Assembly (NCBI GenBank): GCA_943737045.1 | Contig: CALSFV010000261.1 | Span: 372,001-436,000, forward strand | From: Parapristionchus giblindavisi | Taxonomy: Eukaryota; Nematoda; Chromadorea; Rhabditida; Diplogasteridae | Direction: 5' to 3' | DNA: 64,000 nucleotides | Shown here: positions 8,532 to 40,103 of the stretch, piece by piece | How the letters are laid out: each line of letters begins with the position of its first letter | Position numbering within the stretch: the stretch's first letter is position 1 | The notes under the pieces: generated by a model | Told to the model about the DNA's origin: nothing | What the model saw: the letters and a program-made list of their open reading frames with translations, nothing else | Database searches by the model: none | Translations under genes and position numbers: made by a program

Positions 8532-8658
8532 AGGTCGAATAGCTAGGTTATCGGTTTTCTAAATGCGGTCACAATCAGGTTTTTTTTTTCTATTTTTGGC
8601 AAATTTTGTCTAAAATGCGGTCAGGCTTGGTACTTTGAAACATACTTGTCGACCTATG
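8532..8658. mobile_element. Short MITE with GTCGA-type ends
   Basis: Starts TAGGTCGAATAGC and ends GTCGACCTATG, with internal AAATGCGGTCA segments in inverted and direct forms. Relatives occur at 34,710-34,840, 45,893-45,950, 58,000-58,035, 63,290-63,365 and 63,525-63,635. The GAK linker exon ends at 8,675, just beside it, as also at the right-arm copy. Confidence 0.55.
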
Positions 8659-9289
8659 CCCGAAACAAACGTACTATTTGACGCCGTTGAGGATGGCGCC
8701 ACGGGCGCGCCAAAGATGTCATCTAGTCCTGTGGCGTACTGCAAATGAGTGTTATCATGCTCAACCATAGATTCTTCATCACCAATGTGGGAAAAATCGG
8801 ACAGCTTACATAAAATATTCGAAACTTGAAATCACCATGGACCAAGAAAGACAAAGTTTAATTCATTCATCTTCTATTATTCTCTCTTAATAATAAACCA
8901 ACACTTCCAAGCGACCCTTGAGCAGTCCGCAAAATCCCATCTACAGTGCCCCATCCTACAGTAGTCTCCAATAAATCAAAAAATCAATGATCAGCTCACA
9001 TTATTCGTCACAGCTCCAGCGTCTCCGAACAGATCAGCGGCAGAGGTCGCGGTTGAAGATGACGTCATCGATAAGGGATCAAAGAGACGACGTCGGTTAA
9101 GTCATAAGTCGTTAGAGTCACAAAGGTTCCAAGCACTCAATGGTGTTGAAAAGCCATGTAAAGGTATGGAAAATGTAAATGGTCTTTCTTTTTCGTATGT
9201 TTTACATTGTAAATAGTATTCATTTGCTTATCTATTTTCTCAACAGACTTTGCACATATTAAAATATACGTCTACAGAATGTTCAAACC

Positions 9290-9485
9290 CGGATAGTCCA
9301 TGAAGGATCGGGGGCCTCCACCAGACGCGGGATGTCGTGGAGGTTGTGTGGTGGATGCAGACGAGAAGGCGAGTGTCACTCTTGGAATAAATGTGTCGAT
9401 GGATATTGATTGGGTGTTTATCAAAGCAGAAACAGGATTAGATCAAAGGAATAAAAGCATCTCATCGATAATGAAGACGGGTTGA
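9290..9485 (-). repeat. Dispersed GAK-intron block, copy 2
   Basis: Second copy of the block described at 1,495-1,740, here in its place between GAK C-lobe and linker exons of the left arm. Its mirror is 33,870-34,100. Confidence 0.65.
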
Positions 9486-9837
9486 AACACGATAACGACG
9501 TGGTAAAATCCAAGAGAACGAATTTGGAATTCGGATCAAATGGCATTTTTTTTAAACCATAAAAAGCTCAAAGATCAGCCTACAGTATGCTCTCTCATAA
9601 ATTTACCACAGCCAAAGTCCAAAGATCAAAGTTCAAAGATCAACCTACCGTATGTCCTCAGGAATTCACTACAGCCAAAGACCAAAGTCCAAAGATCAAT
9701 CTACAGTATGCTCCCTCATGAATTCACTACATCCAAAGTCCAAAGCATACGTGGGCAACCTTTGTCGCTGGAAATTAAAACCGGGTGGGTGGGACGCAAA
9801 ATTTCTTTTTTGAATGCATTTGACAATGTCGCCGACG

Positions 9838-9935
9838 TGTGTTTGTGTATGTATAGCATGAAATGTGAAATAGCTGCCGCCGAAACAGCGGCAGCTATTT
9901 CACATTTCATGCTACATACATACACAAACAATTCT
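9838..9935. repeat. Near-perfect hairpin breaking GAK C-lobe exon (left arm)
   Basis: A stem of about 40 bases (arm AGCATGAAATGTGAAATAGC) with a short loop near CCGAAAC. It sits just past the point where the C-lobe exon (AAGCVMFYLC) stops matching the fuller copy at 55,222. The same hairpin is at 33,491-33,580 in the right arm, so it predates the inverted duplication. The stem is long enough to look like a small-RNA precursor if transcribed. Confidence 0.75.
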
Positions 9936-10498
9936 ATTAGAGTACATTTGCACAGGTAGAACATCACGCAGCCCGCTGCCTGAAATAAATAATAATTATT
10001 GTTGTTGTTGTTGTTGTTATTATGATTATAATCATTGCCAAATAATTTAAATATTTTGCCGATTGGCGGGAAGCAATAGACGCAATAGAATTAATGCCCA
10101 CTAAAATCCATCGACTATGAGCACAGGTTGGTGCGCGAATTCGCCTGGTTACATCGAGAACGAGAAAACAAGAGAATAAAGAGGACTAATAAAATTTACA
10201 AATAAATTGACGATTTTATTGAAAATTTCACTAATTTTACAGTCACCTCCCGTGTTTTTATCACAAAATGTGAGTATCCTCACAAGGGAACCACTTAACC
10301 ATAAGTCATTTTTCTCTAATTTTGATTTCTTGACGCGAATCTACATGGAATAAGGTTTCCAAAAAGGTAGGTCACAAGAATCACATTCGCGTTTTAAGAC
10401 CTTTTTTCAGCTTCTGAAAAAAAGCACTAGATTTGCATCTCGCCCGCCTCTTTCGTGCAGCAGAAAAGACTCGCAGAAGAGAGATAGGGCAGACAAGT

Positions 10499-10570
10499 GG
10501 CCGGAGTGGTGTAGTGGTCTGGAGCGCGCACGCTCACTCCGACTTTTGGTGGTTCAATTTCTCAAGCAGT
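10499..10570 (+). other. tRNA-like module in left arm of fold-back element
   Basis: A-box-like TGGTGTAGTGGTCTGG and B-box-like GGTTCAATTTC at tRNA spacing. It is repeated in inverse at 11,334-11,403, where the B box reads GGTTCAATTCC, so the element could carry two convergent polymerase III promoters. Confidence 0.6.
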
Positions 10571-10672
10571 CGATACTTTTTGCCATGTTTTTCGAGGCAT
10601 TTACATGTTTCAACCTGTTTTGGTATAGCATCTACTGTGCTATTTACATATTTTTTGTCATATACATTGGTT

Positions 10673-11143
10673 ATGGACCTTTTCCCTGTTCGTAATCAGC
10701 TGATAGTCGGATATCTTGCTACTCGCTTTGATGTGAAGACAACGACAACTGTATCCCGTGATGATCTCAATCCGGAAGAACGTAGATGGGCTGATCGTGT
10801 CTTCTCCATGCTGAAGAGAGCGGAGTCAGGTGAGATCGAAGTTCGTGAGCGACTCGAGATGATACAGGAAGATTTTTTGATTTTTTTAAACTTTGTTCAT
10901 AATTCGTTTTGGCAGGTATTGAGCCCAAGTGTCGCCCATTCGAGATTTGTTTCCTATGGTTTTTATAAGGGTGGTTTCGTGTCCCTGAAGCCTGCACCAT
11001 TTCTCACTCCAAAGCAAGTTATGTTTGGTCCCGGCTCCAATAACGATTGTCATTCATGTTTATCAGTTGGTTGTACTATCTGTCCCCGCTGTACCAAGTC
11101 GTTTTGTTCTAATTGTTTCTGGAGAAATCTCCATAGATGTTGA
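10673..11143 (+). CDS. Cys-rich 156-residue protein carried by fold-back transposon
   Basis: Open frame of 156 codons from ATG at 10,673; the frame stays open upstream to 10,433, giving 236 residues. I do not recognise the body, which is mostly hydrophilic with a predicted helical stretch (LNPEERRWADRVFSMLKRAE). The C-terminal 35 residues hold eight cysteines in the order C-x2-C-x4-C-x2-C-x2-C-x4-C-x2-C-x8-C, with CSNCFWRNLH resembling the cross-brace zinc finger that closes some DDE transposases such as piggyBac. That likeness is my inference. The ORF lies between two tRNA-like modules inside the terminal inverted repeats and is absent from the right arm. It could be a transposase remnant, an accessory protein or a captured host exon. 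Confidence 0.5.
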   Translation: MDLFPVRNQLIVGYLATRFDVKTTTTVSRDDLNPEERRWADRVFSMLKRAESGEIEVRERLEMIQEDFLIFLNFVHNSFWQVLSPSVAHSRFVSYGFYKGGFVSLKPAPFLTPKQVMFGPGSNNDCHSCLSVGCTICPRCTKSFCSNCFWRNLHRC

Positions 11144-11333
11144 TTGTTGATCTCTTTTGTTCATGTAGCCCATATACATTGTTACTTTTTCATTTTCGTT
11201 GTTGTTTTCCTTGTAGATATTATGTTTAGGCAATAAATTATTGCATAATTGTTATCGTAAAAGAAAATTTTTGATATTTACATGCACAAATCGTGTTTAA
11301 ACGTCATAGTAAGCAACAGCAAAAATATTTGGT

Positions 11334-11403
11334 GTTAGCGAGGAATTGAACCACCAAAAGTGGGAGTGAGCGCGCGCGCTCCAGACCACTACACCACTCC
11401 GGC
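11334..11403 (-). other. tRNA-like module in right arm of fold-back element
   Basis: Inverted partner of 10,499-10,570. The two copies differ at a few positions (GCGCGCACGCTC vs GCGCGCGCGCTC), so they have diverged or been only partly homogenised. Confidence 0.6.
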
Positions 11404-11763
11404 CACTTGTCTGCCCTATCAAACTTCTGCGAGTCTTTTCTGCTGCACGAAAGAGGCGGGCGAGATGCAAATCTAGTGCTTTTTCCAGAAGCCGAAAAAA
11501 GGCCTTAAAACGCGAATGTGATTCTTGTGACCTACCTTTTTGGAAACCTTATTCCATGTAGATTCGCGTCAAGAAATCAAAATTAGAGAAAAATGACTTA
11601 TGGTTAAGTGGTTCCCTTGTCAGGCATTTGAAGGGTCCTGGATCTGTGATGGTACCACAAAAACACCATTATCAATAATGTTCTGGAGAGCGTATAAATA
11701 TAATCCCTGAATCTACCAACAACACCTGTCCAACATAATACCACCGGCTACAGTACATTGGCC

Positions 11764-11826
11764 GCTACCGTACTCCCCACAACTACCGTACCTTGGCCGC
11801 TACCGTACTCCCCACAACTACCATAC
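11764..11826. repeat. GTACGGTAG minisatellite, left arm
   Basis: About two units of a 37-base repeat built from TACGGTAG and GTGGGGAG motifs directly follow GAK exon 6 on its coding strand. The mirror has three units (32,889-33,000), so copy number has changed since duplication. Confidence 0.7.
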
Positions 11827-11943
11827 CTTGATATAACGATGGGTGACGGGCGGCGATCGTGAGTGGAGATAGGCAATGGATGAGACTGCGTTGAAGATGT
11901 TCGCCACCTACAAATTCATATTGTTTATTTAATTAATTATTAA

Positions 11944-13072
11944 GACATCGGCTCAGTGAGATTCCAGGAAGTGCCGGACATCGACCTCACCGATTTGGCC
12001 CAAAAACCTTTTATGCATACCCCTATGGGCCCCCATCACAAAATTGGTATTCATTTGGGCTGGTTTCTTGAAACACAGATGTGGCGGGTTTTCGAATTTT
12101 AAAAACTCGATTTTCACCGAAAAAAAAATGGAGCGACCTAGGACCAATGTTGGTGTCGATTAATTATAAGTGTAAATAGACAACAAAAACTGGCTATACG
12201 ACGGTCCAGAGATCCGATCGCAAACTGATTTTTTACCTCCTCAAAACATTCTAAAATTAATTAAAATTTTAAAACAAAAAAGTGCAGTCCAATTTTTGCC
12301 CCATCTTATAGAGCAAAAAAATTCCGTGTCGAATGAGTGAAAAAAATCAAAAATCGAAGGACCCGTCTTTTGAGATAAATGGACCTGAAGTTGACACGAA
12401 AATATTTTTGCTTTCAAACCCCCTCATGTTTGTACTCATGTTGAATAGCTCGTCGAGTAGAACAACTTTTATGTTGAACGTTTTGTCTGAAACTCATGTA
12501 CAAGAGAACTACATGAATTAAGATTTATTGAATCCAAATCATATCGATCGCTTGTATCTTGAGAACAAACGACTTTCGTGGAGTAAGATCAACATGAAAA
12601 ATGATGTGCTCGACGAGTACTTTAAAATGAGCATGAACTTGGCAAGGATCCGACAACTTTTTTTACGAGACCATTTTCGAGTCCTTATTTTTCAGCATAG
12701 GTGACTAAATTTTTTATTCGTGAAACAACAAACTAAGTATGGATTTTTTTATTTCTACAATATAGGCGAAAGCATTTTGTGCACAAAAAATATTTTACCA
12801 TTGTTTTACTCAAACTTGCCTGAAAAACCGTGTGAATTAAGTAAACTCATGTATTTCTCCTGTGCATGCGTTTCAAACAAAATGCTTTTCAAAATTCGAA
12901 AACCCGCCACATCTGTGTTTCAAGAAACCAGCCCAAATGAATACCCATTTTGTGTTAGGGGTCCATAGGGGTATGCATAAAAAAAAAAGCGCGCAACCAT
13001 TTTTGGGCCAAATCGGTGAGGTCGATGTCCGGGGTCACTGGCACAACCCTCGAATCTTACTGAGCCGGTGTC
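11944..13072. mobile_element. TTAA-flanked palindromic element, left arm
   Basis: Starts GACATCGGCTCAGTGAG and ends CTTACTGAGCCGGTGTC between TTAA duplicates (11,940-11,943 and 13,073-13,076). A TTAA target and such termini recall piggyBac-type MITEs, but no transposase is present. Long inverted arms contain fragments also found at 29,852-32,772 and 51,605-53,948. Both palindrome arms carry it at the same intron position, so it predates the large duplication. Confidence 0.8.
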
Positions 13073-13127
13073 TTAATATATTAAAATTCTTAATAAAAGC
13101 AAGGATCTACTGTCCGCATTATATATT

Positions 13128-13886
13128 ACCAGCCGGTGGCGCGCCTACGGCGCGCGTTATCGACTGCTCTGGTTGCGCGCTAGGTTGAGTTGTGTACTGT
13201 TTCTTGGCATTTGTAGAAAATCAGCCGTTTTTTTTGTTGAGAATTTCTTCGTATTTTTGAATCTATCTGAGGTGGATGAGATTTGACGATGACTTCGCAG
13301 AATTTTACTCAAATCTGACCAATCGTACTTATTCTGACTGAACCGGGTTACGGTAGTCTACAATAGGCATAATCATATAACTCGAATAATGCTTAGTACG
13401 ACAATTTTTACTCAAAGCTGACCATCGGTACTTAATCTGACCCACCGAACCGGGTTACGGTAGCTAATGATCATATTCCTTATCCTTTATGTGAGATGAG
13501 TGGTGCTACCGTAATCGGTGATCTGCTTGGTTGTGTTACAGTAATATGCACCATGATGTATAACACTAATGTTAACTTTCCTTCCCGTAACTTAATTTAC
13601 GTTAGCATGACTTAATTTCACTTTGTTTACTTAACTGTACTTAACTTATTCCTTATGGCCTTATTACTTAACTTAATCCTTGGCTTATAACTTAAGTAAT
13701 GACGACTTGACTTATTAGCTAACTTGGCATGGCTTGGAACCGGCTAAGCCCCACCCACCGCTGATCAGTTCCATCGCGCACCAAACCCGTCTGGTGTGCG
13801 CCGAGCACTACATTGAAAGAGAGAGAGAGAGAGAGAAGGGGGCGTGGTCGGGTCAAACAGATGACTATTCTGTTTTATTTATAGTG
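13128..13886. mobile_element. 759-base insertion with 8-base target duplication TATATATT
   Basis: Flanked by TATATATT at 13,120-13,127 and 13,887-13,894. The right arm has the empty site with a single copy (29,797-29,804). It begins ACCAGCCGGTGGCGCGCC and lacks obvious terminal inverted repeats. The middle holds many TTAACTTA/CTTAA motifs and a GA-repeat near 13,817-13,838. No coding frame was recognised, so the class is uncertain: a hAT-like derivative from the 8-base duplication, or a retroposon. Confidence 0.7.
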
Positions 13887-15731
13887 TATATATTATAGAA
13901 TCTATAATATTAACTATGTGATGATGATTAAGGAAAGAGATTTCATGTATTGATAGGGTCGATTCGAAAAAAGTAGAAAGATCGTTGGCGGTAACAGGAA
14001 AAAGAAGAGATTCGTTCTCCTAGTGCTAATTTGGGCCAAAATCAATCAATATAGTATTTCAAGCAAAGAATTAATGATTGCAACCTGCTCGAGCGTCAGT
14101 GACTCAGAGATCGATAACGGAACCACCTGATTAATGATTGATTTTGATTATTGATTGTTTCTTAGATTACCGTCATAATGAACTACAGAAATCATAAATC
14201 GATATTGATAATCGATTGGCTTTAGATAACAAACATACTGTACTACTGCACTCATCCACATTGATTATCGATTGGTTCCTCCCAGACTACCGTAGTACCT
14301 GAGCACAGTTCAGTCATGAGGATGAACTCCTTCGCTCCGCTCGCCGTCCGTGCCTCGCTGCAGATGGACGTGAAGTACCGTATGATGTGCGGGTGTCTCA
14401 GCTGGAACAAAGGAAGATATTATTGATTGATTTTCCGTTTTAAAAATTTTAATAATGAAATCGAATCATGGAAACGGTTAGGGGATATGAGAAATTCGTG
14501 AAACATATTTCATACATCAATACACCAGGCTACATTTGCGATATAAAAAGGTAACATAATGCAAATTTCAAATGTTCATCAACGAAAAAAATCGCTCCCT
14601 CATACATACCTCAATAAGGTTAACGCAAGGTTACCAATAAATCACTAAAATCAATCAATAAATCACGAAAATCAATCAATACCTGTTTCAGCAGACGCAT
14701 TTCGTCCTGGATCATTCGTACGGATGCTTCGTCATTGGCCAGCTGCACTTTGAGTGCGTACCAGGCTCCTGACGCGGCGTCCTGACACGTGTATACGGTA
14801 GCGAAGCCGCCTGGAACGAGCGAATCAATAAAGGGTAGTATATAAGTCGTATTCTAAATGCAACGGTTTACTTATCACCAAAAAAAAATAAAATTGAAGA
14901 GAAATGCGAAATGGGGAACGTGAACTCGCCGGGTTGAGCATGGTTGAATCTTGAACCAAGAAAATCAAAATGTTTAAATGCACATACACATGGATATTTT
15001 TTTAAAGAATTTTAAGAATTTTACACGATTGGACTTGTTGATTTAATGTTTCAACTTATCCATAAATCTCTTGAAAAGTATGAGACGTACCTTGCGCGAT
15101 CTGGCTTCGCACGTGTATCCGCTGTCTACTAACATCCAGCTTCTGGCCGACGAGGGAATGACCACCGTTTCCCCCTCCACCACCGTCGCCTGATAATCAA
15201 TCAATCAATAAATCAATAACATTAACAGTAATCATACATTTTCATTCCTTCACAGCTTGAGGACCCACTACATACGGTTCGTTTTCTGCATCTACCCACT
15301 ATATAAGGGTAATTTTTAAGCTAAAAATACAATTTAAGCGAAAAATAACGATTTTACGAAATCGACCCAGTATATATAAAAAACCGGCATAGGGTGATGA
15401 AAATGTATGCCTGATAATCAATAAATCAATACCATTAACAATAATCAATCACTAGTAACAATATTCACGTATCAGTCACTACTAGCAATAATAACCAGTT
15501 GCAGCGTGCGGCAAACCCCAACCAGGACGTTTTCATTTGAAATTAGCAAAACAGCCGAAGTTGAAAACGGTTTTACACTAAGTTGACTATGGTGAGTATC
15601 GTTGTGTACTTCATTTTGCTCAATTTCTCCGTTCCTAAAGTCATTCCCTTATCAGTATCCACCCGCTAGATTTGTTTTTGAAACTAAAATCCATCATTCA
15701 TCTTTCAGCAGCTTTACAAGCAGGTCGAAAC

Positions 15732-15845
15732 CATGAACGGTGACAAACCGTTTACCGCCAAACGTGACGTCACAGGCGTAGGCGGAGGCGTTTGCCAGAG
15801 ACTCTTGTGACGTCAAACGGTTTGCCAACGTTCATGGATACGGCA
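15732..15845. mobile_element. CRE-containing hairpin MITE, left arm
   Basis: Arms run inward from CATGAACGTTGGCAAACCGT to GTGACGTCA, with a centre of GGCGTAGGCGGAGGCG. Mirror at 23,780-23,893; relatives at 61,905-62,042, about 17,530-17,630, 3,865-4,010 and 4,583-4,735. Each keeps a TGACGTCA-like palindrome. Confidence 0.65.
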
Positions 15846-16392
15846 CCAGGATTCAAAAATAGCGTATGTTAATATGAAATAAAGGGGTACGCGAAGATCA
15901 AGGACAGACAAACAAGCGCGTGCTTTAAAAATGATTGAAACCAGATTTCATCAGGAGGAATTAACAACCTTTTTATAAAATTTTAACAAAAATGAAAAAT
16001 ACCTCCTAACAGATTGATGGCACCGCGTAGAAGGTTCGCCATTGCGGCTGAAATCCATCCAATCGATATATCGATCGAATCCAATAAAATTTCATTCGGA
16101 AATTTGCAAATCATGGTCGAATAACCAATCAATAAACTCACAAACCAACACATCAGGTAAGATGAAGTGTTTTATCCGAATGGATGCAGAAACAACGAAA
16201 AAGTTCAAAGATCAAAGACCAAAGATCAAGAATCAACAATAACGATGGGAGTAAGGGCATAACGTAACGATGTGTATTTATGTAATATTAAACTCAACGA
16301 AAACAAGGAAACAACATGATTTGATTGATCGGCAAACTCAACAATAACAATTCAATCGATCAATCGATAATTCATCTACCGTAACCAATTAA

Positions 16393-16496
16393 TCAATACT
16401 CCTTAAAGTGCTGAATCTCGTAGAGTCGAGTGGCACCGTTGGTCGTGCCCACTGCCTTGTAGCCAGACTGCGGTGAGAAATCGATCGACGTAACTC
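16393..16496 (-). pseudogene. UTP18-like last exon, left arm
   Basis: A 104-base final exon reading VTSIDFSPQSGYKAVGTTNG then ATRLYEIQHFKEY and TGA. It matches the carboxy end of the small-subunit processome WD40 protein UTP18, where SPRSGYxAxGNxxGxAxxYRLHHxxxF is characteristic. Role of the family: U3-dependent pre-18S rRNA processing in the nucleolus. It lies just upstream of GAK exon 1 on the same strand. The penultimate exon seen at 57,682 is missing, so this is a fragment. Confidence 0.8.
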
Positions 16497-18300
16497 CTGA
16501 AAGGAACATGCTATCCGCTGTTGCAAAACGTCAGTGACGACTACACCACAAGATCAATAATCCCACTCAAAACACTATCCTGATCAATCATTCAATTTCC
16601 CAAACCCATTATTACGCATTATTTACATAATTAATTAAATTTATTTGAACAGCATTATTTAATTTTACCACCGATATTCATGCAAACATATATTTGTACA
16701 TTTTAAAGTATTATTAACTTAAATGAGTAATTAATTAAATAATTAAATCATAATCAATTAATTATGAAAAATCAATCGTTCACGATATCAAAGTTAACCG
16801 TAACGGATAAAAGAGTTATTTGAACTCGACCGGTGAATGGACAATCGACAAATATACAAACACAACAGCTATTATGAAAGTTATGAAACCGCAAATATGC
16901 GGGTGGAAGAGCGGCGAACGAGCGAGCCTTCTTTCTCACCATTTAATATCCAACTATATCATCATCTCTCTTCTCTCTTATCATACTATCTACAAAGAGT
17001 ACTAAGTAACTTTCAAATTAAATCAAAACTGGCATGAAGCGCTAAACCTGAACGAAACCTGAACGTTATGCGTGGGAAAATGCTCGCAACAGATCTCCGC
17101 TTATTGACCGAATACATTACAATTTCACCAACAGTATCATCAGATATATCTAGAATGCAGTTAATATACACTTCAGAAACCGGAAGGCGGACTTGACTGA
17201 CAAGTTGTCTTCGTATTGTATTGCATAGTTTTTTTTTTCTCTATGTGGACTGCAAGATTGAATTGGAGCATAAATTAAAACCAATATGAAGCGCTCGAAA
17301 CGATAACGGGTGAAAAATCGGGCCGAGCGAGTGGCAATAGTCTGTGAATATCCCCGACGTCTCAAACGCGTGTCGGTGCCCAGAATTTTTAGGCAAAATT
17401 TCGTATGGATACCAGAAAAGTAGAGAAATTGCGATGAAAATCTCTCGCCCAATTTTGCGTGTGGGTACTCATAAACTTCCACGTGATGTTCAGGGATCTG
17501 GTATGGTCAGGGACCATCACAGTTGTGGCCGTATGCATAAACAAGGGGAAAACCGTTTTCCGCGAAAATGTTGCGTAATTAGCGTAGACGGAGGACTTTT
17601 GGAAACCGACTCCGTTGTTCATTCATGCGGCCATTGGGTGGAGCGTCCCATTCTGCGTCACATCCAACCCCATTCACGCATGCCCACACTCACCTCTGCT
17701 CTTATCACTGATGACAACTTATCACTCAGTCAAAAGCACAACTCGAGTCACTACTGACAACACTAATACGATCCACCAACTAATGAGCACAAATATAGAT
17801 CTCCCCAAGTGTGATTAAATCCATTCTTTCTTCATTTCTATTAGTGTCATTGGTTATACCGATCGAAGCTTGGAGGATTAGTTTAGTTCTATGATGGCAA
17901 TGTGACATGAATTTACCGGGTTGAGATTGCACGAGGACGAATGAATGGTGGCAAACCGTTTGACGGCAGAAGCGACGTCACAACGTACGCGAAGGTGATT
18001 GCAAAAACTCAGCCACTTACGCTTGTGACGTACCCATACGTGGGTAACTTTTGCCGTTGGAAATTAAAATCGGGTGGGTGGGAGGCCAAAACTTCTTGTT
18101 TCAATGAATTCTGGCCTAATCGCTGGATAAAATAAATGAAAATGACACCATTCACCAGTCATGATTCATATCTCATCTGTATTTTATCCTTTCGCTGATA
18201 ACTCGACGGACATCCATCAACCTATATTAATTACATATCTGCTCTCTCTCATTTGTTATGATGGAAATAAAGAATAATAAAATAAAAATCAAATGTCATG
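16497..18300. repeat. Upstream region of the locus, mirrored
   Basis: Noncoding sequence nearly identical to the complement of 21,317-23,120. It contains AT-rich runs (16,610-16,780), one GGCCGTATGC-type hairpin (about 17,520-17,640) and the GGTGGGTGGGA repeat (about 18,045-18,110) that recurs at 9,760-9,815, 27,010-27,070 and 33,610-33,690. No gene seen. Confidence 0.6.
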
Positions 18301-18309
18301 CATGCACAG

Positions 18310-18787
18310 CAGGGTTGGGCGTTAAATCAAAATTTAACGGATCCGTTAAATCCGTTAAAATACCAAAGAAATTGTGGAAATCGACTAATTTCGATATTTC
18401 TCCATTTTTAATACTCAATATTAGGAGTAGTAACAGTACATTTCCGAAAACAAAGTAAAATAATCAATATAAAGCATTTCGCAAAAAATGCGAAAACTAA
18501 AGAAGAAGAGCCGGTGACGAAAGTGAATTGCTTTCGATGATCAATTCGAATATGTAGTACTTGTATAACGCTATAGTGAGAACAGAGTACTCGAAATATA
18601 AATTTTAAAAGCATAGAACTTATACAAATAGCATGTTTTCTACCTTTTTTACTACAAAATATTCAATTTATTTTTAACGGATTTAACGGAAACATTTTAA
18701 CGGATTCCGTTAAAAATTAATTTAACGGATGAATACCGTTAAATCCGTTAAATCCGTTAAAACCGTTAACGTTAAATCCCAACCCTG
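18310..18787. mobile_element. hAT-like MITE, left arm
   Basis: Starts CAGGGTTGGGCG and ends CCCAACCCTG, flanked by perfect 8-base duplicates ATGCACAG (18,302-18,309 and 18,788-18,795). The ends are dominated by GTTAAATCC/GGATTTAAC repeats. The terminus and 8-base duplication fit hAT transposons. The element at 55,334-56,508 shares the CAGGGTTGGGC end. Confidence 0.85.
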
Positions 18788-19429
18788 ATGCACAGTAATA
18801 GCACATAAACTGGGAAATGTTAGTAATATCAGTTAAAATGTTTAGGCATGTTTGCGAAGGTTGCCAAAAATACCAACACATTCGAATGTGTCTTCAAGTT
18901 TAAACGAGAGTGAAACACGAAACGAACTGGCGCAAAAAGACATCTGGTACTTCGAAACTTGAAGTTTACTACTCGATTACAGTGGTGCACGTAAGCCTTT
19001 TCAACAGGCTCCACGCGGCATAGCGCCGCACCACGCCCCACCACGCCTGGGATTTTTCTCGATGAATAAAGAGTTAAAAATTATGTTTATAGTAGCGATC
19101 GCTTACCTGTTTGGGAGGCTAAAATATACATAGTAACCAAAATTTTTGATTGTGTCTGAATAGTTTTTCCAAAATTCGTACTTTTGTAATTTTGAAAATT
19201 TAAGAGAGACTATCTGGCTCACAAGGGAACCGAGAATGGCGGGGACCATCAGTGCAAAATTCGTTGACATTGGTCGACTAGGACCCCCCCCCCAGGTGGT
19301 CACAGAACTGTTTTGAACTGTTTGGATATTTGCTTCCTTGGTACCGAAAATCGATTATGAAAATGTGACGGAAATCTGGGCGCAAGCCCCGTGGAATAGT
19401 GTGAAACACTCAAAGAAGACAGTCAGTGT

Positions 19430-19500
19430 CCTCCGTAGCTAAGTGGTTAGAGTGCGGGTTTAGTTTCTGGAATGTCGTTGGTTCGAATCCCCCCTTCTAC
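19430..19500 (+). other. tRNA-like module in central fold-back element
   Basis: A box TAGCTAAGTGGTTAGAG and B box GGTTCGAATCC are excellent matches to the eukaryotic tRNA internal promoter. The inverse copy is at 20,116-20,187. Confidence 0.65.
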
Positions 19501-19731
19501 AATTTCTTTTGCTGTATTTTTTCTTTGCTTTCCAACAGGCAGTTTCAATTTAAACTTCATCTTCAACAACAACAACAACAACGATAACAACAACTACAAA
19601 TCAACGATTGAGAAGTACCTTTTCGCATCGGGAGCAGAAAGAACACGGAGCCATCGACAACTGCATCGATAGATGTAGTTGTCGATGTGAATTGATCCTA
19701 TACTTCCAGCGCTTATTCCCGGAACTGTTCT

Positions 19732-19934
19732 GGAGAGGGAGAGGGAGAGGGAGAGGGAGAGGGAGAGGGAGAGGGAGAGGGAGAGGGAGAGGGAGAGGGA
19801 GAGGGAGAGGGAGAGGGAGAGGGAGAGGGAGAGGGAGAGGGAGAGGGAGAGGGAGAGGGAGAGGGAGAGGGAGAGGGAGAGGGAGAGGGAGAGGGAGAGG
19901 GAGAGGGAGAGGGAGAGGGAGAGGGAGAGGGAGG
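19732..19934 (+). repeat. GGGAGA hexanucleotide array
   Basis: About 34 nearly perfect tandem units at the core of the central fold-back element. It is open in all frames and yields meaningless RG, SL and PL repeat frames. Confidence 0.97.
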
Positions 19935-20115
19935 TCAAAGGAGATGGCTTCATCACGTGATGAAGAAAAGCGAGATCCGAGAAGCAGTTCTGCTACAACT
20001 GTTTCTGGGTACTTCTCAATTGTTGTTGATTTGTGGTTGTTGTTGTTGTTGAAGATGAAGTTTAAATTGAAACTGCCTGTTGGAAAGCAAAGAAAAAATA
20101 CAGCAAAAGAAATTG

Positions 20116-20187
20116 TAGAAGGGGGGATTCGAACCAACGACATTCCAGAAACTAAACCCGCACTCTAACCACTTAGCTACGGAGGAC
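20116..20187 (-). other. tRNA-like module, mirror of 19,430
   Basis: Identical A and B boxes on the minus strand, facing the other module across the hexanucleotide core. Confidence 0.65.
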
Positions 20188-20830
20188 ACTGACTGTCTTC
20201 TTTGAGTGTTTCACACTATTCCACGGGGCTGGCGCCCAGATTTCCGTCACATTTTCATAATCGATTTTCGGTACCAAGGAAGCAAATATCCAAACAGTTC
20301 AAAACAGTTCTGTGACCACCTGGGGGGGGGGGGGTCCTAGTCGACCAATGTCAACGAATTTTGCACTGATGGTCCCCGCCATTCTCGGTTCCCTTGTGAG
20401 CCAGATAGTCTCTCTTAAATTTTCAAAATTACAAAAGTACGAATTTTGGAAAAACTATTCAGACACAATCAAAAATTTTGGTTACTATGTATATTTTAGC
20501 CTCCCAAACAGGTAAGCGATCGCTACTATAAACATAATTTTTAACTCTTTATTCATCGAGAAAAATCCCAGGCGTGGTGGGGCGTGGTGCGGCGCTATGC
20601 CGCGTGGAGCCTGTTGAAAAGGCTTACGTGCACCACTGTAATCGAGTAGTAAACTTCAAGTTTCGAAGTACCAGATGTCTTTTTGCGCCAGTTCGTTTCG
20701 TGTTTCACTCTCGTTTAAACTTGAAGACACATTCGAATGTGTTGGTATTTTTGGCAACCTTCGCAAACATGCCTAAACATTTTAACTGATATTACTAACA
20801 TTTCCCAGTTTATGTGCTATTACTGTGCAT

Positions 20831-21308
20831 CAGGGTTGGGATTTAACGTTAACGGTTTTAACGGATTTAACGGATTTAACGGTATGCATCCGTTAAATTA
20901 ATTTTTAACGGAATCCGTTAAAATGTTTCCGTTAAATCCGTTAAAAATAAATTGAATATTTTGTAGTAAAAAAGGTAGAAAACATGCTATTTGTATAAGT
21001 TCTATGCTTTTAAAATTTATATTTCGAGTACTCTGTTCTCACTATAGCGTTATACAAGTACTACATATTCGAATTGATCATCGAAAGCAATTCACTTTCG
21101 TCACCGGCTCTTCTTCTTTAGTTTTCGCATTTTTTGCGAAATGCTTTATATTGATTATTTTACTTTGTTTTCGGAAATGTACTGTTACTACTCCTAATAT
21201 TGAGTATTAAAAATGGAGAAATATCGAAATTAGTCGATTTCCACAATTTCTTTGGTATTTTAACGGATTTAACGGATCCGTTAAATTTTGATTTAACGCC
21301 CAACCCTG
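20831..21308. mobile_element. hAT-like MITE, right arm
   Basis: Mirror copy of 18,310-18,787 with target duplicates CTGTGCAT at 20,823-20,830 and 21,309-21,316. It was duplicated with the arm rather than inserted independently. Confidence 0.85.
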
Positions 21309-23120
21309 CTGTGCATGCATGACATTTGATTTTTATTTTATTATTCTTTATTTCCATCATAACAAATGAGAGAGAGCAGATATGTAATTAATATAGGTTG
21401 ATGGATGTCCGTCGAGTTATCAGCGAAAGGATAAAATACAGATGAGATATGAATCATGACTGGTGAATGGTGTCATTTTCATTTATTTTATCCAGCGATT
21501 AGGCCAGAATTCATTGAAACAAGAAGTTTTGGCCTCCCACCCACCCGATTTTAATTTCCAACGGCAAAAGTTACCCACGTATGGGTACGTCACAAGCGTA
21601 AGTGGCTGAGTTTTTGCAATCACCTTCGCGTACGTTGTGACGTCGCTTCTGCCGTCAAACGGTTTGCCACCATTCATTCGTCCTCGTGCAATCTCAACCC
21701 GGTAAATTCATGTCACATTGCCATCATAGAACTAAACTAATCCTCCAAGCTTCGATCGGTATAACCAATGACACTAATAGAAATGAAGAAAGAATGGATT
21801 TAATCACACTTGGGGAGATCTATATTTGTGCTCATTAGTTGGTGGATCGTATTAGTGTTGTCAGTAGTGACTCGAGTTGTGCTTTTGACTGAGTGATAAG
21901 TTGTCATCAGTGATAAGAGCAGAGGTGAGTGTGGGCATGCGTGAATGGGGTTGGATGTGACGCAGAATGGGACGCTCCACCCAATGGCCGCATGAATGAA
22001 CAACGGAGTCGGTTTCCAAAAGTCCTCCGTCTACGCTAATTACGCAACATTTTCGCGGAAAACGGTTTTCCCCTTGTTTATGCATACGGCCACAACTGTG
22101 ATGGTCCCTGACCATACCAGATCCCTGAACATCACGTGGAAGTTTATGAGTACCCACACGCAAAATTGGGCGAGAGATTTTCATCGCAATTTCTCTACTT
22201 TTCTGGTATCCATACGAAATTTTGCCTAAAAATTCTGGGCACCGACACGCGTTTGAGACGTCGGGGATATTCACAGACTATTGCCACTCGCTCGGCCCGA
22301 TTTTTCACCCGTTATCGTTTCGAGCGCTTCATATTGGTTTTAATTTATGCTCCAATTCAATCTTGCAGTCCACATAGAGAAAAAAAAAACTATGCAATAC
22401 AATACGAAGACAACTTGTCAGTCAAGTCCGCCTTCCGGTTTCTGAAGTGTATATTAACTGCATTCTAGATATATCTGATGATACTGTTGGTGAAATTGTA
22501 ATGTATTCGGTCAATAAGCGGAGATCTGTTGCGAGCATTTTCCCACGCATAACGTTCAGGTTTCGTTCAGGTTTAGCGCTTCATGCCAGTTTTGATTTAA
22601 TTTGAAAGTTACTTAGTACTCTTTGTAGATAGTATGATAAGAGAGAAGAGAGATGATGATATAGTTGGATATTAAATGGTGAGAAAGAAGGCTCGCTCGT
22701 TCGCCGCTCTTCCACCCGCATATTTGCGGTTTCATAACTTTCATAATAGCTGTTGTGTTTGTATATTTGTCGATTGTCCATTCACCGGTCGAGTTCAAAA
22801 ACTCTTTTATCCGTTACGGTTAACTTTGATATCGTGAACGATTGATTTTTCATAATTAATTGATTATGATTTAATTATTTAATTAATTACTCATTTAAGT
22901 TAATAATACTTTAAAATGTACAAATATATGTTTGCATGAATATCGGTGGTAAAATTAAATAATGCTATTCAAATAAATTTAATTAATTATGTAAATAATG
23001 CGTAATAATGGGTTTGGGAAATTGAATGATTGATCAGGATAGTGTTTTGAGTGGGATTATTGATCTTGTGGTGTAGTCGTCACTGACGTTTTGCAACAGC
23101 GGATAGCATGTTCCTTTCAG

Positions 23121-23224
23121 GAGTTACGTCGATCGATTTCTCACCGCAGTCTGGCTACAAGGCAGTGGGCACGACCAACGGTGCCACTCGACTCTACGAG
23201 ATTCAGCACTTTAAGGAGTATTGA
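23121..23224 (+). pseudogene. UTP18-like last exon, right arm
   Basis: Same 104-base exon as 16,393-16,496, with an intact frame to TGA at 23,222-23,224 and a TTTCAG acceptor. Its GAK neighbour starts 351 bases downstream on the same strand, close enough for a compact gene pair. It includes CACTTTAAGGAG, the undisturbed version of the site into which the TTAA element at 58,263 inserted. Confidence 0.8.
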
Positions 23225-25859
23225 TTAATTGGTTACGGTAGATGAATTATCGATTGATCGATTGAATTGTTATTGTTGAGTTTGCCGATCAATCAAATCA
23301 TGTTGTTTCCTTGTTTTCGTTGAGTTTAATATTACATAAATACACATCGTTACGTTAAGCCCTTACTCCCATCGTTATTGTTGATTCTTGATCTTTGGTC
23401 TTTGATCTTTGAACTTTTTCGTTGTTTCTGCATCCATTCGGATAAAACACTTCATCTTACCTGATGTGTTGGTTTGTGAGTTTATTGATTGGTTATTCGA
23501 CCATGATTTGCATATTTCCGAATGAAATTTTATTGGATTCGATCGATATATCGATTGGATGGATTTCAGCCGCAATGGCGAACCTTCTACGCGGTGCCAT
23601 CAATCTGTTAGGAGGTATTTTTCATTTTTGTTAAAATTTTATAAAAAGGTTGTTAATTCCTCCTGATGAAATCTGGTTTCAATCATTTTTAAAGCACGCG
23701 CTTGTTTGTCTGTCCTTGATCTTCGCGTACCCCTTTATTTCATATTAACATACGCTATTGTTGAATCCTGGTGCCGTATCCATGAACGTTGGCAAACCGT
23801 TTGACGTCACAAAAGTCTCTGGCAAACGCCTCCGCCTACGCCTGTGACGTCACGTTTGGCGGTAAACGGTATGTCACCGTTCATGGTTTCGACCTGCTTA
23901 TAAAGCTGCTGAAAGATGAATGATGGATTTTAGTTTCAAAAACAAATCTAGCGGGTGGATACTTATAAGGGAATGACTTTAGGAACGGAGAAATTGAGCA
24001 AAATGAAGTACACAACGATACTCGCCATAGTCAACTTAGTGTAAAACCGTTTTCAACTTCGGCGGTTTTGCTAATTTCAAATGAAAACGTCCTGGTTGGG
24101 GTTTGCCGCACGCTGCAAACTGATTATTATTGCTAGTAGTGACTGATACGTGAATATTGTTACTAGTGATTGATTATTGTTAATGGTATTGATCTATTGA
24201 TTATCAGGCATACATTTTCATCACCCTATGCCGGTTTTTTATATATACTGGGTCGATTTCGTAAAATCGTTATTTTTCGCTTAAATTGTATTTTTAGCTT
24301 AAAAACTACCCTTATATAGTGGGTAGATGCAGAAAACGAACCGTATATAGTGGGTCGATCCTCAAGCTGTGAAGGAATGAAAATGTATGATTACTGTTAA
24401 TGTTATTGATTTATTGATTGATTGATTATCAGGCGACGGTGGTGGAGGCGGAAACGGTGGTCATTCCCTCGTCGGCCAGAAGCTGGATGTGAGTAGACAG
24501 CGGATACACGTGCGAAGCCAGATCGCGCAAGGTAACATCTCGTACTTTTCAAGTAGTTTATGGATAACTTGAAACATTAAATCAACAAGTTCCTATTCTA
24601 ATCGTGTAAAATTATTTAAATTCTTTTAAAAAAATATCCATGTGTATGTGCATTTAAACATTTTGATTTTCTTGATTCTTTTTTTTGGTTAGATTCAAGC
24701 ATGCTCAACCCGGCGAGTCCTCATTTTGCTTTTTTCTTCATTTATATCTTTTTTTGGTGATCACAGTATCTTTACATTTACAACACTACTGTGATAGTAC
24801 CTATTATTGATTCGCTCGTTCCAGGCGGCTTCGCTATCGTATACACGAGTCAGGACGCCGCGTCAGGAGCCTGGTACGCACTCAAAGTGCAGTTGGCCAA
24901 TGACGAAGCGTCCGGGATGAAATGCGCCTGCTGAAACAAGTATTGATTGATTTTCCTGATTTATTGATTGATTTTTGTGATTTATTGGTCAACTTGCGTC
25001 AACCTTATTGAAGTATTTTCATTTTTAGTTGTGGAAAAAGTGAAATTTGCGTTATGCTACCTTTTTTATATCGCAAGTGCAGTCTGGTGTAATGATGTAT
25101 GAAATATGTTTCACGTATTTCTCATAGCCCCTGACCGTTTCTTTGATTCGATTTTTCTGTCTCATCCATTGTGATATCAAGGTACGGTAGTTGTGGGGAG
25201 AACGGTAGCGGCCAATGTACTGTAGCCTGGTGTAGTACGGTATACAGGGGCTATATTTATACGTTCTCCCGGTCAACTTTGAATATGGTGTGAAACCTGG
25301 ATATACCTGGAATATCCGTTGTGACTAGGGACTTTCTAATTTGCTATATCAGTTATTGATCATTGGACTTTGATCTTTGATCTTTAATCAGTCTGCTCTC
25401 AGGTGGAGAATCTGCTATTCTATTCGATGGGCGTGGTGAAGATATGCGACTTTGGCAGCGCGACGACGCCCGATGACTCGTGGACGACGGCACAACGGAA
25501 GAAGCTAGAGGAAGATGTGAGTTGATCCTTGATCTTTGATCTTTGATCTCTAGTCTTTTATCTATTGTCTTTGATCTTTCGATGGGGGCGAAGGTTAATG
25601 ACATAACATGAACCGCTCTCTCGTAGACAAAGAAAGCGAGAGAGCATTGCCAGAGCGGAGAGTCTGCGTCTGATGACTGTGATGTGTCTTTGCGTGTATG
25701 CAATGATCAATGGCGTTGCGTTCCTTTTCGGCGCAAAAAAAACGAAAAATAAACAATTTCAGCGAAATAATATCAGTTTATAATACTTACGGGACAGTTT
25801 ATAGTTCTGAAAATTTTCGTTGAACAAAATTTATGATTTTTTAGTGATTCGATTTCACA

Positions 25860-26200
25860 CATTTTCATACCCTCACAGTGTGAGGATAGACCCACTATAT
25901 ACGGCGCATTTTCATCATACATTTTCATACCCTCACAGTGTGAGGATTGACCCACTATATACGGGTCATTTTCAGGGTGACCCACTATATAAAGTTAATT
26001 TTTATGTGAAAGAATACAATTTAAGCGAAAAATAATAATTTTTCTAAATCGACCCACTATATAAAAATAATTCGGTGAGGGCACCGAAAATGTATGATTT
26101 TCATTGGCGACACACTAAACTTTTTTTTATAAGAAATATTACAATTTATAACGATTTTTTCTAAATTTACCCATTATATAAAAATAATTCGGTGAGGGTA
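25860..26200. repeat. Tandem and dispersed CCCACTATATA repeats
   Basis: Two adjacent units starting CATTTTCATACCCTCACAGT and containing GACCCACTATATACGG, then weaker units to about 26,200. Single relatives lie near 1,735, 6,175, 15,270, 24,310, 38,080, 46,300 and 62,290, making this one of the commonest families in the window. Confidence 0.7.
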
Positions 26201-26574
26201 CCGAAAATGTATGTTTCTCTATTATAGAATTACAAAAGTTTTGCACACACCGCGCCAAATGCCGATATAGTAAACTTCTCCACCGTTGAGAAAAATGCAC
26301 TATAAATTTTCGGAAGGTTTTTTCGAACGTTTTTTCAATGCATATAATTTTATTTTTATGGAAAGTCCTGTGAAATGATGAGGAAACGCCATAAAATTCG
26401 ATAAAACTAGAGAAAATGGTATGTCGCGCGAAGAAGTGGGCGGAGTCTGAATATTGCGCGGTAAATTGCGGAATTTGTATTGTTCGGACAGTTTTAATTC
26501 TATAATACCTCTTTGTCATTGTTTACAAGTCATTCTAACAAGTCATTCAAGCTGGAGAGGGAAAGAGGGTTCTA

Positions 26575-26782
26575 CTCTGGTATTTTGAAACTTAAAGTCT
26601 ACTTAAATTACGTCACAGACTTTAAGTAGACTTTAAGTAAACTTAAAGTGAAAGAACATTTGACGAAATGCATTACAGTATACTACACCACTTTAAGTAG
26701 ACTTACGTTTCACTTTAAGTTTACTTAAAGTCTACTTAAAGTGGGAAAGTTTAAGTAGACTTTAAGTGGCAAAATACCAGAG
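26575..26782. mobile_element. TA-flanked MITE made of CTTTAAGTAGA units
   Basis: Ends CTCTGGTATTTTG and CAAAATACCAGAG, flanked by TA. The interior consists of repeated ACTTAAAGT/CTACTTAAAGT in both orientations. It is confined to the extra segment of the right arm. A one-ended relative lies at about 56,598. Confidence 0.75.
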
Positions 26783-28721
26783 TATCCTCTTTCCTCCTCC
26801 CTTCCCTTCCCTTCCTTTCCCACCAGAGGGTTTCATGTCGCACATGTTGATTATCTCCCGATTCTATCTTCTCGTTTTGTTGCTGCACTTTGACATAGCG
26901 AAAAAAATGTCACCCACGTATCATAAGGCATTCCTGCCCGGTTTTAGCGCCAGACCCATCCGTTTTATCCAAACTTCACTCAAAAATGAAAACGATTTAG
27001 CCAAAATTAATTCAAAAAGGAAATGTTTGCGTCCCACCCACCCGGTTTCTCGCTACAAAGGCCACGTATGCTTCTACCCTCTTTTCCTCTTCTAACCCAA
27101 TCAGGAAAAAACTTTTTTTTGTTTTCAGATTCGGCGGATATGCTAATTTCAAATAAAAACGTCCTGGTTAGGGTTTCTCGTACACTGCAAACATGTTATT
27201 ATTGGTAGTAGTGATTGATGCATAAATATTGTAACCATTGATTGATTATTGTTAAAGTTGTTGATAGACGTAGCGGCCGAAACACCATAGGGCACAATAT
27301 CAGCTAGCTTATTTATTTTAAAATTTACATTTAAAGTGCATGCATACTTTTTCTTGTACATCTATTAATATTATCAATTTAATTGATTGATTGATTATCA
27401 GACGACGGTGGTGGAGGGGGAAACGGTCACCATTCCCTCGTCGGCCAGAAGCTGGATGTGAGTGGACAGCGAATACACGTGCGAAGCCAGATCGCGCAAG
27501 GTACGTCCCATACTTTTCAAGAGATTTATGGATAAGTTAAAACATTAAATCAACAAGTAACTATTCTAATCGTGTAAAATTATTTATATTCTTTAAAAAA
27601 ATATCCATGTGTATGTGCATTTAAACATTTTGATTTTCTTGATTCAAGATTCAACCATGCTCAACCCGGCGAGTTCACGTTCCTCATTTCGCTTTTCTCT
27701 TCATTTATATCTTGTTTGGTGATCACAGTATCTTTACATTTACAACACTGCTGTGATAGTACACTTTATTGATTCGCTCGTTCCAGGCGGCTTCGCTACC
27801 GTATACACATGTCAGGACGCCGCGTCAGGAGCCTGGTACGCGCTCAAAGTGCAGCTGGCCAATGACGAAGCGTCCGTACGAATGATCCAGGACGAAATGC
27901 GTCTGCTGAAACAGGTATTGATTGATTTTCGTGATTTATTGATTGATTTTAGTGATTTATTGGTAACCTTGCGTTAACCTTATTGAAGTATGTATGAGGG
28001 AGCGATTTTTTTCGTTGAGGAACATTTGAAATTTGCATTATGTTACCTTTTTATATCGCAAATGTAGCCTGGTGTATTGATGTATGAAATATGTTTCACG
28101 AATTTCTCATATCCCCTAACCGTTTCCATGATTCGATTTCATTATTAAATTTTTTAAAACGGAACATCAATCAATAATATCTTCCTTTGTTCCAGCTGAG
28201 ACACCCGCACATCATACGGTACTTCACGTCCATCTGCAGCGAGGCACGGACGGCGAGCGGAGCGAAGGAGTTCATCCTCATGATTGAACTGTGCCCCGGA
28301 ACTACGGTAGTCTGGGAGGAACCAATCGATAATCAATGTGGACGAGTGCAGTAGCACAGTATGATTGTTATCTAAAGCCAATCGATTATCAATATCGATT
28401 TATGATTTCTGTAGTTCATTATGACGGTTATCTAAGAAACAATCAATAATCAAAATCAATCAAGAATCAGGTGGATCCGTTATCGATCTCTGACTAGGGA
28501 ATGGTTCGTAATGGGTACGAAATTACGGTGAGTGACTACCATGGCGATAATAAGCATGGCCGACTTAGTAAGAATCAACTTTCAAAGTCTGCTATTTATC
28601 GATTTTGAAAAACCCGGCGCATTTACGTCGCACGGCTGAAAATGATTGTCCCACCCTTCAATGGGGAAGGGAGGGACAATCACTGTCAAAGACGGAAGAG
28701 TGAACTCTCTATCCAAACCGA

Positions 28722-28795
28722 GCTGTTGTATATTGGTAAGTGCGCGTGGTCATTACTTTTTGCACATGAGTTCGATTCCACCGAGAACATTTTAT
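28722..28795 (+). other. tRNA-like module in fold-back element
   Basis: A-box-like TGTATATTGGTAAGTG and B box GAGTTCGATTCC at tRNA spacing; the inverse copy is at 29,364-29,427. Confidence 0.5.
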
Positions 28796-29363
28796 GACTG
28801 TGTAATAATTTAACAATGAATGCGGATGTTTCAATGGAAATAAAGTCCACAATTTCTATTTATTTTGGTTTTTGCTACTTTTTTCGCTATCTTTAATTTG
28901 TAATCGATGTGATTATATTGTTTTCAAGAGCACACGATGTTTGCAAGTTGGTGTGTTGTAGTTTCATCGATCAGTTGATAGTTCTTCCCTCCATTTATTG
29001 ATTTTTTTCAGGAGTTTGATGACTTATCTTGATCTACACAGTTTTTTATTCTGCTTAAATGGGTGTTTCTGCAATGGTAGTTTCTGGCTTTTTGGCACAA
29101 AAGTTTGGAAATGTTCTGCAGTCGCCAGTAGACATACATGTAATAATACAGTAATATTTAATTTGTTGAACACTTATGTAGATGTTTTCTATGAATTCCA
29201 TAAAGTTGTTACTAGTATCTGATTTTCTACAGATTCGCAACGAAGAAGAGATAACAAAAAAACACCGAAAAAGTAGCAAAAACCGAAATAAATAGAAATT
29301 GTGGACTTTATTTCCATTGAAACATCCGCATTCATTGTTAAATTATTACACAGTCATAAAATG

Positions 29364-29427
29364 TTCTCGGTGGAATCGAACTCATGTGCAAAAAGTAATG
29401 ACCACGCGCACTTACCAATATACCACA
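29364..29427 (-). other. tRNA-like module, mirror of 28,722
   Basis: Minus-strand partner with the same B box. Confidence 0.5.
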
Positions 29428-30543
29428 CAATCATTTTCAGCCGTGCGACGTAAATGCGCCGGATTTTTCAAAATCGATAAATAGCAGACTTTGAAAGTTG
29501 ATTCTTACTAAGTCGGCCATGCTTATTATCGCCATGGTAGTCACTCACCGTAATTTCGTACCCTTTACGAACCATTCCCTAGTGAGTCACTGACGCTCGA
29601 GCAGGTAGGCAATCATTAATTCTTTGCTTGAAATACTATATTGAATGATTTTGGCCCAAAATTGGCACTAGGAGAACGAATCTCTTCTTTTTCCTGTTAC
29701 CGCCAACGATCTTTCTACTTTTTTCGAATCGACCCTATCAATACATGAAATCTCTTTCCTTAATCATCATCACATAGTTAATATTATAGATTCTATAATA
29801 TATAATGCGGACAGTAGTTCCTTGCTTTTATTAAGAATTTTAACATATTAAGGCACCGGCTCAGTAAGATTCGAGGGTTATGCCAGTGACCCCGGACATC
29901 GACCTCACCGATTTGGCCCAAAATTTTTTTATGCATACCCCTATGGGCCCTTAACACAAAATGGGTATTTATTTAGGCTGGTTTCTTGAAACACAGATGT
30001 GACGGGTTTTCGAATTTTGAAAACTCGATTTTCACCGAAAAAAAATGGAGCGACGTATCTTAATGTCGATTAATTATAAGTATCGCAAACTGATTTTCGA
30101 TCGCAAACTGATTTTTTTACCTCCTCAAAACATTCTAAAATTAATTAAAATTTCAAAAGAAAAAAAGTGCACTCCAGTTTTTGCCTCATCTTATAGAGCA
30201 AAAAAATCCGCGTCGAATAAGGGAAAAAAAATAAAAAATCGAAGTCTTTTGAGATAAATGGACCTGAAGTTGACCCGAAAATATTATTTCTTTCAAACCC
30301 CCTGATGTTTGTAATCATATTGAAGAGCTCGTCGAGTAGAACAACTTTCATGTTAAGCATTTTGTTCGAAACGCATGCACAAGAGAAATACATGAGTTTA
30401 CTTAATTCACACGGTTTTTCAGGCAAGTTTGAGTAAAACAATAGTAAAATATTTTTTGTGCACAAAATGCTTTCGCCTATATTGTAGAAATAAAAAATCC
30501 ATACTTAGTTTGTTGTTTCACGAATAAAAAATTTAGTCACCTA

Positions 30544-32888: not shown

Positions 32889-33000
32889 GGTACGGTAGTT
32901 GTGGGGAGTACGGTAGCGGCCAAGGTACGGTAGTTGTGGGGAGTACGGTAGCGGCCAAGGTACGGTAGTTGTGGGGAGTACGGTAGCGGCCAATGTACTG
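32889..33000 (+). repeat. 37-base GTACGGTAG minisatellite, three units
   Basis: Three near-identical units (GTACGGTAGTTGTGGGGA...GCGGCCAA) start right at the donor site of GAK exon 6. The left arm has about two. Confidence 0.85.
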
Positions 33001-40100: not shown

Positions 40101-40103
40101 TGT

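Follow-up and report, generated by a model that had tools for sequence, protein, structure and literature searches.

Transposons of the Tc4/Tc5 type follow rules for their termini and targets, with CAAGGG or CTAGGG at the ends and a direct TNA copy on each side. Fold-back inverted duplication is an already known mechanism, usually inferred from rearrangements in patients or in yeast, and according to PMC10164571, inverted repeats in single-stranded yeast DNA rearrange at similar rates when they lie 12 bp or 30 kb apart. Here we describe a locus where the two appear to meet, in a 64,000-nucleotide stretch from the nematode Parapristionchus giblindavisi (the window, contig C261, positions 372001-436000, in a 251-Mb assembly of 703 contigs). 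At the center of a palindrome in this window lies a Tc5-like fold-back transposon with CAAGGG ends, which we call the CAAGGG element. On balance we favor the reading that this is a real, layered palindrome of a nematode chromosome, in which a fold-back inverted duplication seeded by the element was laid over an older inverted pair of paralogues. The genome similarity searches described below scored about 40 candidates each, and the outer flanks of the palindrome were queried over 4-6 kb each. The center comprises the following features.

19222-20396 (+): central Tc5-like CAAGGG fold-back element, 1,175 bp, repeated in the genome
19222-19593 (+): left terminal repeat of the central element
19594-20019: unpaired center of the central element, 426 bp, with a GGAGAG array at 19732-19933
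20020-20396 (-): right terminal repeat of the central element, a near-copy of the left repeat
19219-19221 (+): TCA target copy on the left
20397-20399 (+): TGA, the mirror of the TCA rather than a direct copy

The arms mirror each other starting at the first base outside the element, with 489 bp that contain no difference and 99.93% mirrored identity over the first 1,500 bp of the flanks. The main inverted match pairs 14458-19593 with 25154-20020 at 97.2% over 5,170 columns, and its midpoint, at about 19,806, falls within the element. The flank outside each terminal repeat is the reverse complement of the opposite flank, and the element center is unmirrored, i.e. a single-copy spacer between the inverted copies. 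The first-pass annotation of this window had described mirror-image arms of about 15-19.2 and 20.4-24.6 kb meeting in the element, with single-base and run-length differences between them. The mirror is borne out and such differences are indeed present, but near-identity reaches only to about 15131 on the left and 24491 on the right. Beyond the main match, patchy collinear inverted blocks continue in order to 5961 on the left and 38312 on the right, so that the palindrome spans about 32 kb rather than 10 kb. Past these two positions no mirror partner was found in the first kilobases, which were what we queried of the approximately 378 kb and 259 kb of contig that lie beyond.

Further copies of the CAAGGG element occur in the genome (40 of 259 candidates were scored), and the family has the CAAGGG ends and direct TNA copies of a Tc5-like transposon: 15 of the 17 two-ended genome copies have identical direct TNA copies, one has TAA/TGA, and one, the central copy, has TCA/TGA, making it one of two exceptions. 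The TCA and TGA on opposite sides of the central element, on which the first-pass annotation had remarked, are plain in the sequence. Its statement that every other member of the group here has direct TNA copies agrees with 10283-11619, 28494-29582, and 37016-37447, the three further CAAGGG- or CTAGGG-ended window elements that we examined, each of which has TGA/TGA. Since TCA and TGA are only one base apart, the trinucleotides alone are weak proof, and it is the mirrored kilobases of flank that carry the case. None of the 16 other two-ended copies has flanks mirrored from both edges in the 434-1,500 bp of flank read, although in some of them short inverted repeats lie at a greater distance from the element. 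The related one-sided copy at 10283-11619 encodes the C-terminal domain of a Tc5-type transposase (PF04236, E 2.7e-8), and Pfam matches were obtained for 1 of the 10 window open reading frames (ORFs) tested. A protein search with the Tc5-like ORF gave no scoring match among 142 candidates at E 0.001. By eye, we also noted a tRNA-like stretch with a GGTTCGAATCC box in the terminal repeat (19430-19500 and its mirror); ARAGORN called no tRNA in the window.

What lies directly beside the element speaks for a fold-back. The first-pass annotation had taken the inverted flanks for host DNA; we dropped that assignment once we identified the end of one transposon and the arm of another, a miniature inverted-repeat transposable element (MITE), in that position.

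19204-19221 (+): only the left end of a high-copy TTAA-flanked element, its 18-bp terminal repeat (GAGAGACTATCTGGCTCA)
20397-20414 (-): mirror of the 18-bp repeat
18978-19203 (+): one arm of a TA-flanked CAGTGG MITE, 226 bp
20415-20640 (-): mirror of the MITE arm, with about 27 bp usually absent from natural right arms

A 24-mer containing the 18-bp repeat has 674 matches in the genome at up to 3 mismatches (100 places listed), against 0 for a control, with plus/minus pairs about 1.2 kb apart on contigs C124, C204, C288, and C404; the one pair that we read is TTAA-flanked. On contig C37 (779915-796477) the 24-mer occurs four times at 5.51-kb spacing, which suggests a tandem array. In usual copies of the MITE, the left arm runs to query position 404, about 84 bp of spacer follow, and the right arm usually starts from about position 377, whereas the mirrored arm here extends to 404 and then into the 18 bp of the TTAA element. 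An ordinary nest of insertions would go on rightward with the interior of the TTAA element, then the MITE spacer, then the natural right arm. The MITE spacer and the first 183 interior bases of one TTAA element were not found in the window beyond 15-base matches, and both nested elements are present at the joint only as mirrors of their left parts. The 18 bp alone are naturally inverted, being terminal repeats, but the MITE arm and the kilobases beyond it are not.

The terminal repeats of the element carry a second trace. In a joint alignment, the left and right repeats of the central copy differ at 1 site, while those of 14 other copies differ at 4-21 sites, with the maximum in copy L024; this comparison left out two copies, L045 (608 bp) and L046 (rearranged, 117 differences). 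Six private substitutions are common to both central-copy repeats and occur in none of the 28 other repeats. At column 328, both central-copy repeats have a T, which 4 of the 14 left-type repeats share but none of the 14 right-type ones, and the rarer states at columns 197, 219, 243, and 258 point toward the left type (13 copies). The element center adjoining the right repeat retains right-type sequence, so the change from left to right type falls in the (CAA)n at the inner edge. The right repeat is left-type on the outside and right-type on the inside, as expected of a hybrid repeat, by a small number of diagnostic columns. This pattern is what would be left if the left repeat had been copied onto the right.

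The sequence of events that best accounts for this arrangement can be outlined. The CAAGGG element would have been in place before the fold-back. A break or stalled fork at the inner edge of the right terminal repeat would then have released a 3' end, and this end could have folded back through (TTG)n/(CAA)n onto the left repeat, with the 426-bp element center as the unpaired loop. The folded end would have copied the left repeat with its TCA and continued through the nested remnants into the left flank for 2.5 kb or more, after which the free end may have been joined by homology to an inverted paralogue of a kinase gene resembling GAK that was already present on the right.

The divergence between the arms suggests that not all of the palindrome has one origin. 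We distinguish the following layers; C57 is another contig, which carries a third copy, covering 12516-16508 and arranged like the left arm over the length of the locus that was read.

16651-19221 (+): innermost left arm, proposed template; 1 substitution and 1 single-base indel relative to the right
20397-22966 (-): innermost right arm, proposed copy
15131-16650 (+): left arm of the second layer; 16 substitutions, a divergence of about 1%
22967-24491 (-): second layer, right arm
5961-14830 (+): outer left arm
27740-38312 (-): outer right arm; divergence from the left about 2.4% where blocks align
24534-27361: right-arm-only stretch, comprising a diverged paralogue (24534-25154) and 2.2 kb; not at this place in the left arm or the C57 copy

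Divergence is 0.04% in the inner 2.55 kb, about 1% in the next 1.5 kb, 12% in the kinase paralogue, and 2.4% in the outer arms. Going outward from 16650, there are 14 substitutions between left and right by 15200 and 16 by 15131, and then 70 of 602 sites differ between 15090-14458 and the right. The innermost layer differs significantly from the second (1/2,551 versus 14/1,520; Fisher test, p=9.7e-6), as does the inner arm from the outer blocks (15/4,019 versus 133/5,492; p=8.7e-18), and the outer blocks vary from 0.7 to 4.2% with no smooth gradient. We therefore dropped the idea of uniform arms of a single age, as divergence varies by block. For 14107-14760, left and right differ at 17 of 654 sites (2.6%), left and C57 at 12 of 649 (1.9%), and right and C57 at 19 of 655 (2.9%). 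Over these 0.65 kb the outer arms show no more similarity to one another than to C57, so the outer pair need not stem from the fold-back, and most likely the outer arms represent an older inverted pair of a local repeat family found on C261 and C57. Repeat fragments resembling the arms occur at several further places on both contigs. No near-identical C57 copy of 8430-9560 was among the matches listed, so the C57 comparison covers only part of the outer arms. We considered whether 3 kb had simply been deleted from the left arm between direct repeats, and dropped this because the C57 copy has the left arrangement and the left arm has an odd tract of its own at about 14770-14950; a 331-bp segment absent from the left arm is present in C57, which indicates a deletion in the left arm. 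The first-pass annotation had proposed a snap-back at the element with the chromosome arm copied outward. The near-copied repeat and the left-only nested remnants agree with the snap-back, but the stepped divergence, the paralogue and 2.2 kb that interrupt the right arm, and the kinship with C57 speak against a single outward event.

The arms run into the diverged paralogue near a conserved kinase exon.

15091-15189 (-): exon, as judged by eye, of a GAK-like kinase gene; lies near the limit of close identity
24433-24531 (+): right counterpart of the kinase exon

A three-exon composite peptide, taken mostly from the C57 copy and partly from window copies at 60-63 kb, matches cyclin-G-associated kinase among solved structures (E 7.4e-19) and the Pfam kinase domain (E 4.6e-10); a single kinase exon as query had no match in solved structures. 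The C57 kinase copy has an in-frame stop and therefore looks broken.

Five clean one-sided insertions, with target copies and an empty site opposite, lie in the outer arms, two on the left and three on the right.

10283-11619: left-arm insertion, CAAGGG element with an ORF for the C-terminal part of a Tc5-type transposase; TGA copies, right arm empty
13129-13886: left-arm insertion; 9-bp copies, empty in the right arm and C57
28494-29582: right-arm insertion, element with CTAGGG ends; TGA copies, left arm and C57 empty
30544-32015: right-arm insertion, fold-back element flanked by TA; left arm and C57 empty
37016-37447: right-arm insertion, short CAAGGGG element; TGA copies, left arm empty

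C57 lacks the three that fall within its range, so these are true insertions. Four more one-sided segments have no clean ends (7028-8089, 25155-27361, 30024-30354, and 35407-36831).

Several observations weigh against an element-seeded fold-back. All of our evidence is assembly sequence, so the center is unproved in DNA, and the caution in the first-pass annotation that the assembly may be chimeric or mis-joined stands. The original right flank was not found, and two other palindromes in the genome, described below, have no central CAAGGG element. Within the terminal repeats, the left-to-right direction hinges on few columns, the rarer states at columns 63-66, 76, and 182 point toward the right type (13 copies), and because the switch in the (CAA)n lies within a microsatellite, its exact base is uncertain. 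Gene conversion from arm to arm after some other origin could have homogenized the repeats, the target copies, and the flank, and as it could leave the same repeat pattern, our confidence is only moderate. It is also conceivable, though rather unlikely in our judgment, that the inner mirror is not one molecule but an assembly artefact, where the path folded at near-identical repeats or where haplotypes or paralogous loci were joined head to head. Two contigs end within copies of the CAAGGG element (C658:415248-415860 and C291:489061-489483), so the element does trouble the assembler; the innermost 2.55 kb are almost identical, and near-identity at the center is also expected from read reuse or from polishing with ambiguous reads; and a fold through the repeats would likewise yield two copies of one repeat. 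Such an artefact has to contend with the 16 substitutions between 16650 and 15131, with the five clean insertions and their empty sites, with the lack of any mirror in the first kilobases queried past 5961 and 38312, although the contig runs on far beyond them, and with layers that are not obtainable from one fold alone.

Two other histories would accept the palindrome as real. One older fold-back might have made all of it out to 5961/38312, with repeated later breaks at the central element homogenizing outward and the extra right-arm stretch inserted later. This would account for divergence being lowest at the center, for the outer blocks being collinear over both arms, and for the lack of a near-identical C57 copy of 8430-9560 among the matches listed, yet we consider it improbable given that divergence within the outer pair, at 2.6% over the 0.65 kb compared against 1.9% and 2.9% to C57, indicates no closer kinship there, that C57 has the left arrangement without the right-arm insert, and that outer divergence steps by block rather than following a gradient. 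Alternatively, the palindrome could have come first, with the element inserting at its dyad, where the sequence resembled CTNAG, and with one of the target copies later mutated or converted. CTNAG is the preferred target of Tc4/Tc5 transposons, the dyad would read CTNAG if the element were removed, and TCA differs from TGA by one base. However, a fresh insertion would carry the usual differences between left and right repeats, so this order of events needs an extra conversion, and no similar joined palindrome was found elsewhere in the genome (a 27-mer for a ready-made joined 18-bp palindrome had 0 matches at up to 3 mismatches), which leaves it very improbable. An inversion of a whole contig between haplotypes was dropped because queries with 4-6 kb of each outer flank listed no near-allelic mirrored partner on C261.

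Outside the arms, the best relative of the right flank at 38.2-43.5 kb lies on C205 (92%), and the matches listed include no other on C261 (39 of 4,416 candidates scored). Window positions 38863-42800 have many relatives on C205, C224, C29, C208, and C30 at 66-92% identity, and the first-pass proposal to use 40-42.7 kb as a single-copy reference for coverage fails on these many relatives on C205, C224, and other contigs. The left outer flank has partial relatives on C261 at 48 kb (95/84%), 437 kb (96/83%), and 571 kb (87/87%) (40 of 7,883 scored); the one at 437 kb is on the mirrored side, yet it is no closer than the one at 48 kb. A 287-bp tandem repeat at 52525-53619 (3.8 copies, 97%) has relatives inside both palindrome arms.

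The other palindromes of this assembly differ from the one in the window. One, at C261:25001-32985, has arms of at least 3.9 kb at 99.7% and a spacer of 127 bp, and the other, at C205:2012317-2022000, has arms of at least 4,156 bp at 100% and a spacer of 1,372 bp. Each runs into the edge of the sequence read, so that the arms may extend further. Neither has a central CAAGGG element, which means that palindromes in this genome, whether real or made by assembly, arose in more than one way. The C205 palindrome is recent, converted, or a product of assembly. An inverted pair on C2 with identical scores (2010262-2010611 on the minus strand and 2021571-2021920 on the plus strand, 1.2 kb between them read) is perhaps another. 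Matching scores in inverted order at C205:2159248-2173089, near the end of C205, and C30:985948-998660 suggest unjoined overlapping contigs or a large duplicate. Elsewhere in the assembly, the 22 bases of the SL1 leader have 351 exact matches against 0 for a reversed control, which marks the genome as that of a nematode; many of these matches lie on C145 at a spacing of about 1.17 kb.

We also entertain, as a doubtful extension, that a fold-back transposon could be a recurrent nucleator of palindromes, one that seeds the mirror and whose hairpin then keeps breaking, with repair from the opposite arm homogenizing the center outward. If so, this would explain the step from 0.04% to 1%, and the divergence profile would be a record of repair-tract lengths. 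Returning to the single element-seeded fold-back that we favor, the natural locus here appears to preserve the joint itself, in the form of a hybrid repeat within one transposon, mirrors of the left parts of nested elements, and target copies turned from direct to inverted. Should reads confirm it, mirrored target copies together with homogenized terminal repeats could serve as a rule for scanning any genome and for asking how frequently palindromes and gene duplicates are seeded by fold-back transposons; at this locus, part of a GAK-like kinase gene family is involved. Among the titles listed from the open literature, none was on a palindrome centered on a Tc4/Tc5-type element.

The closest parallels are the human fold-back inverted duplications of PMC3907307, which like this locus have an unpaired spacer, inverted homology at the edge, a hybrid repeat (Alu or long interspersed nuclear element), and a copied arm. 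Theirs pair through two separate elements or through 2-8 bp, whereas here both repeats belong to one transposon, and theirs are large and lie beside terminal deletions, translocations, and rings, while ours is interstitial and measured in kilobases. In the hairpin-mediated foldback inversions of yeast (PMC7467729), hairpin copying is followed by a homology-mediated secondary rearrangement that stabilizes the inversion, and we propose the latter here at the kinase paralogue; those were selected laboratory events, and this is apparently a natural locus. Origin-dependent inverted-repeat amplification (PMC4689423) similarly starts from inverted repeats, through which an error of replication yields inverted copies, but it predicts an inverted triplication, and only two near-identical copies of the inner arm were among the matches listed here. 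Fold-back elements of root-knot nematodes (PMC3169594) were rejected as the same family, as they are Mutator-type with 9-bp target copies. In its CAAGGG/CTAGGG ends and TNA copies, the family described here follows the terminal and target rules of Tc4/Tc5-type transposons. With those of nematodes (PMC6829131) it also shares long inverted repeats and, in a related copy, the Tc5-type domain; the central copy differs from them in that its flanks are mirrored instead of carrying a direct repeat.

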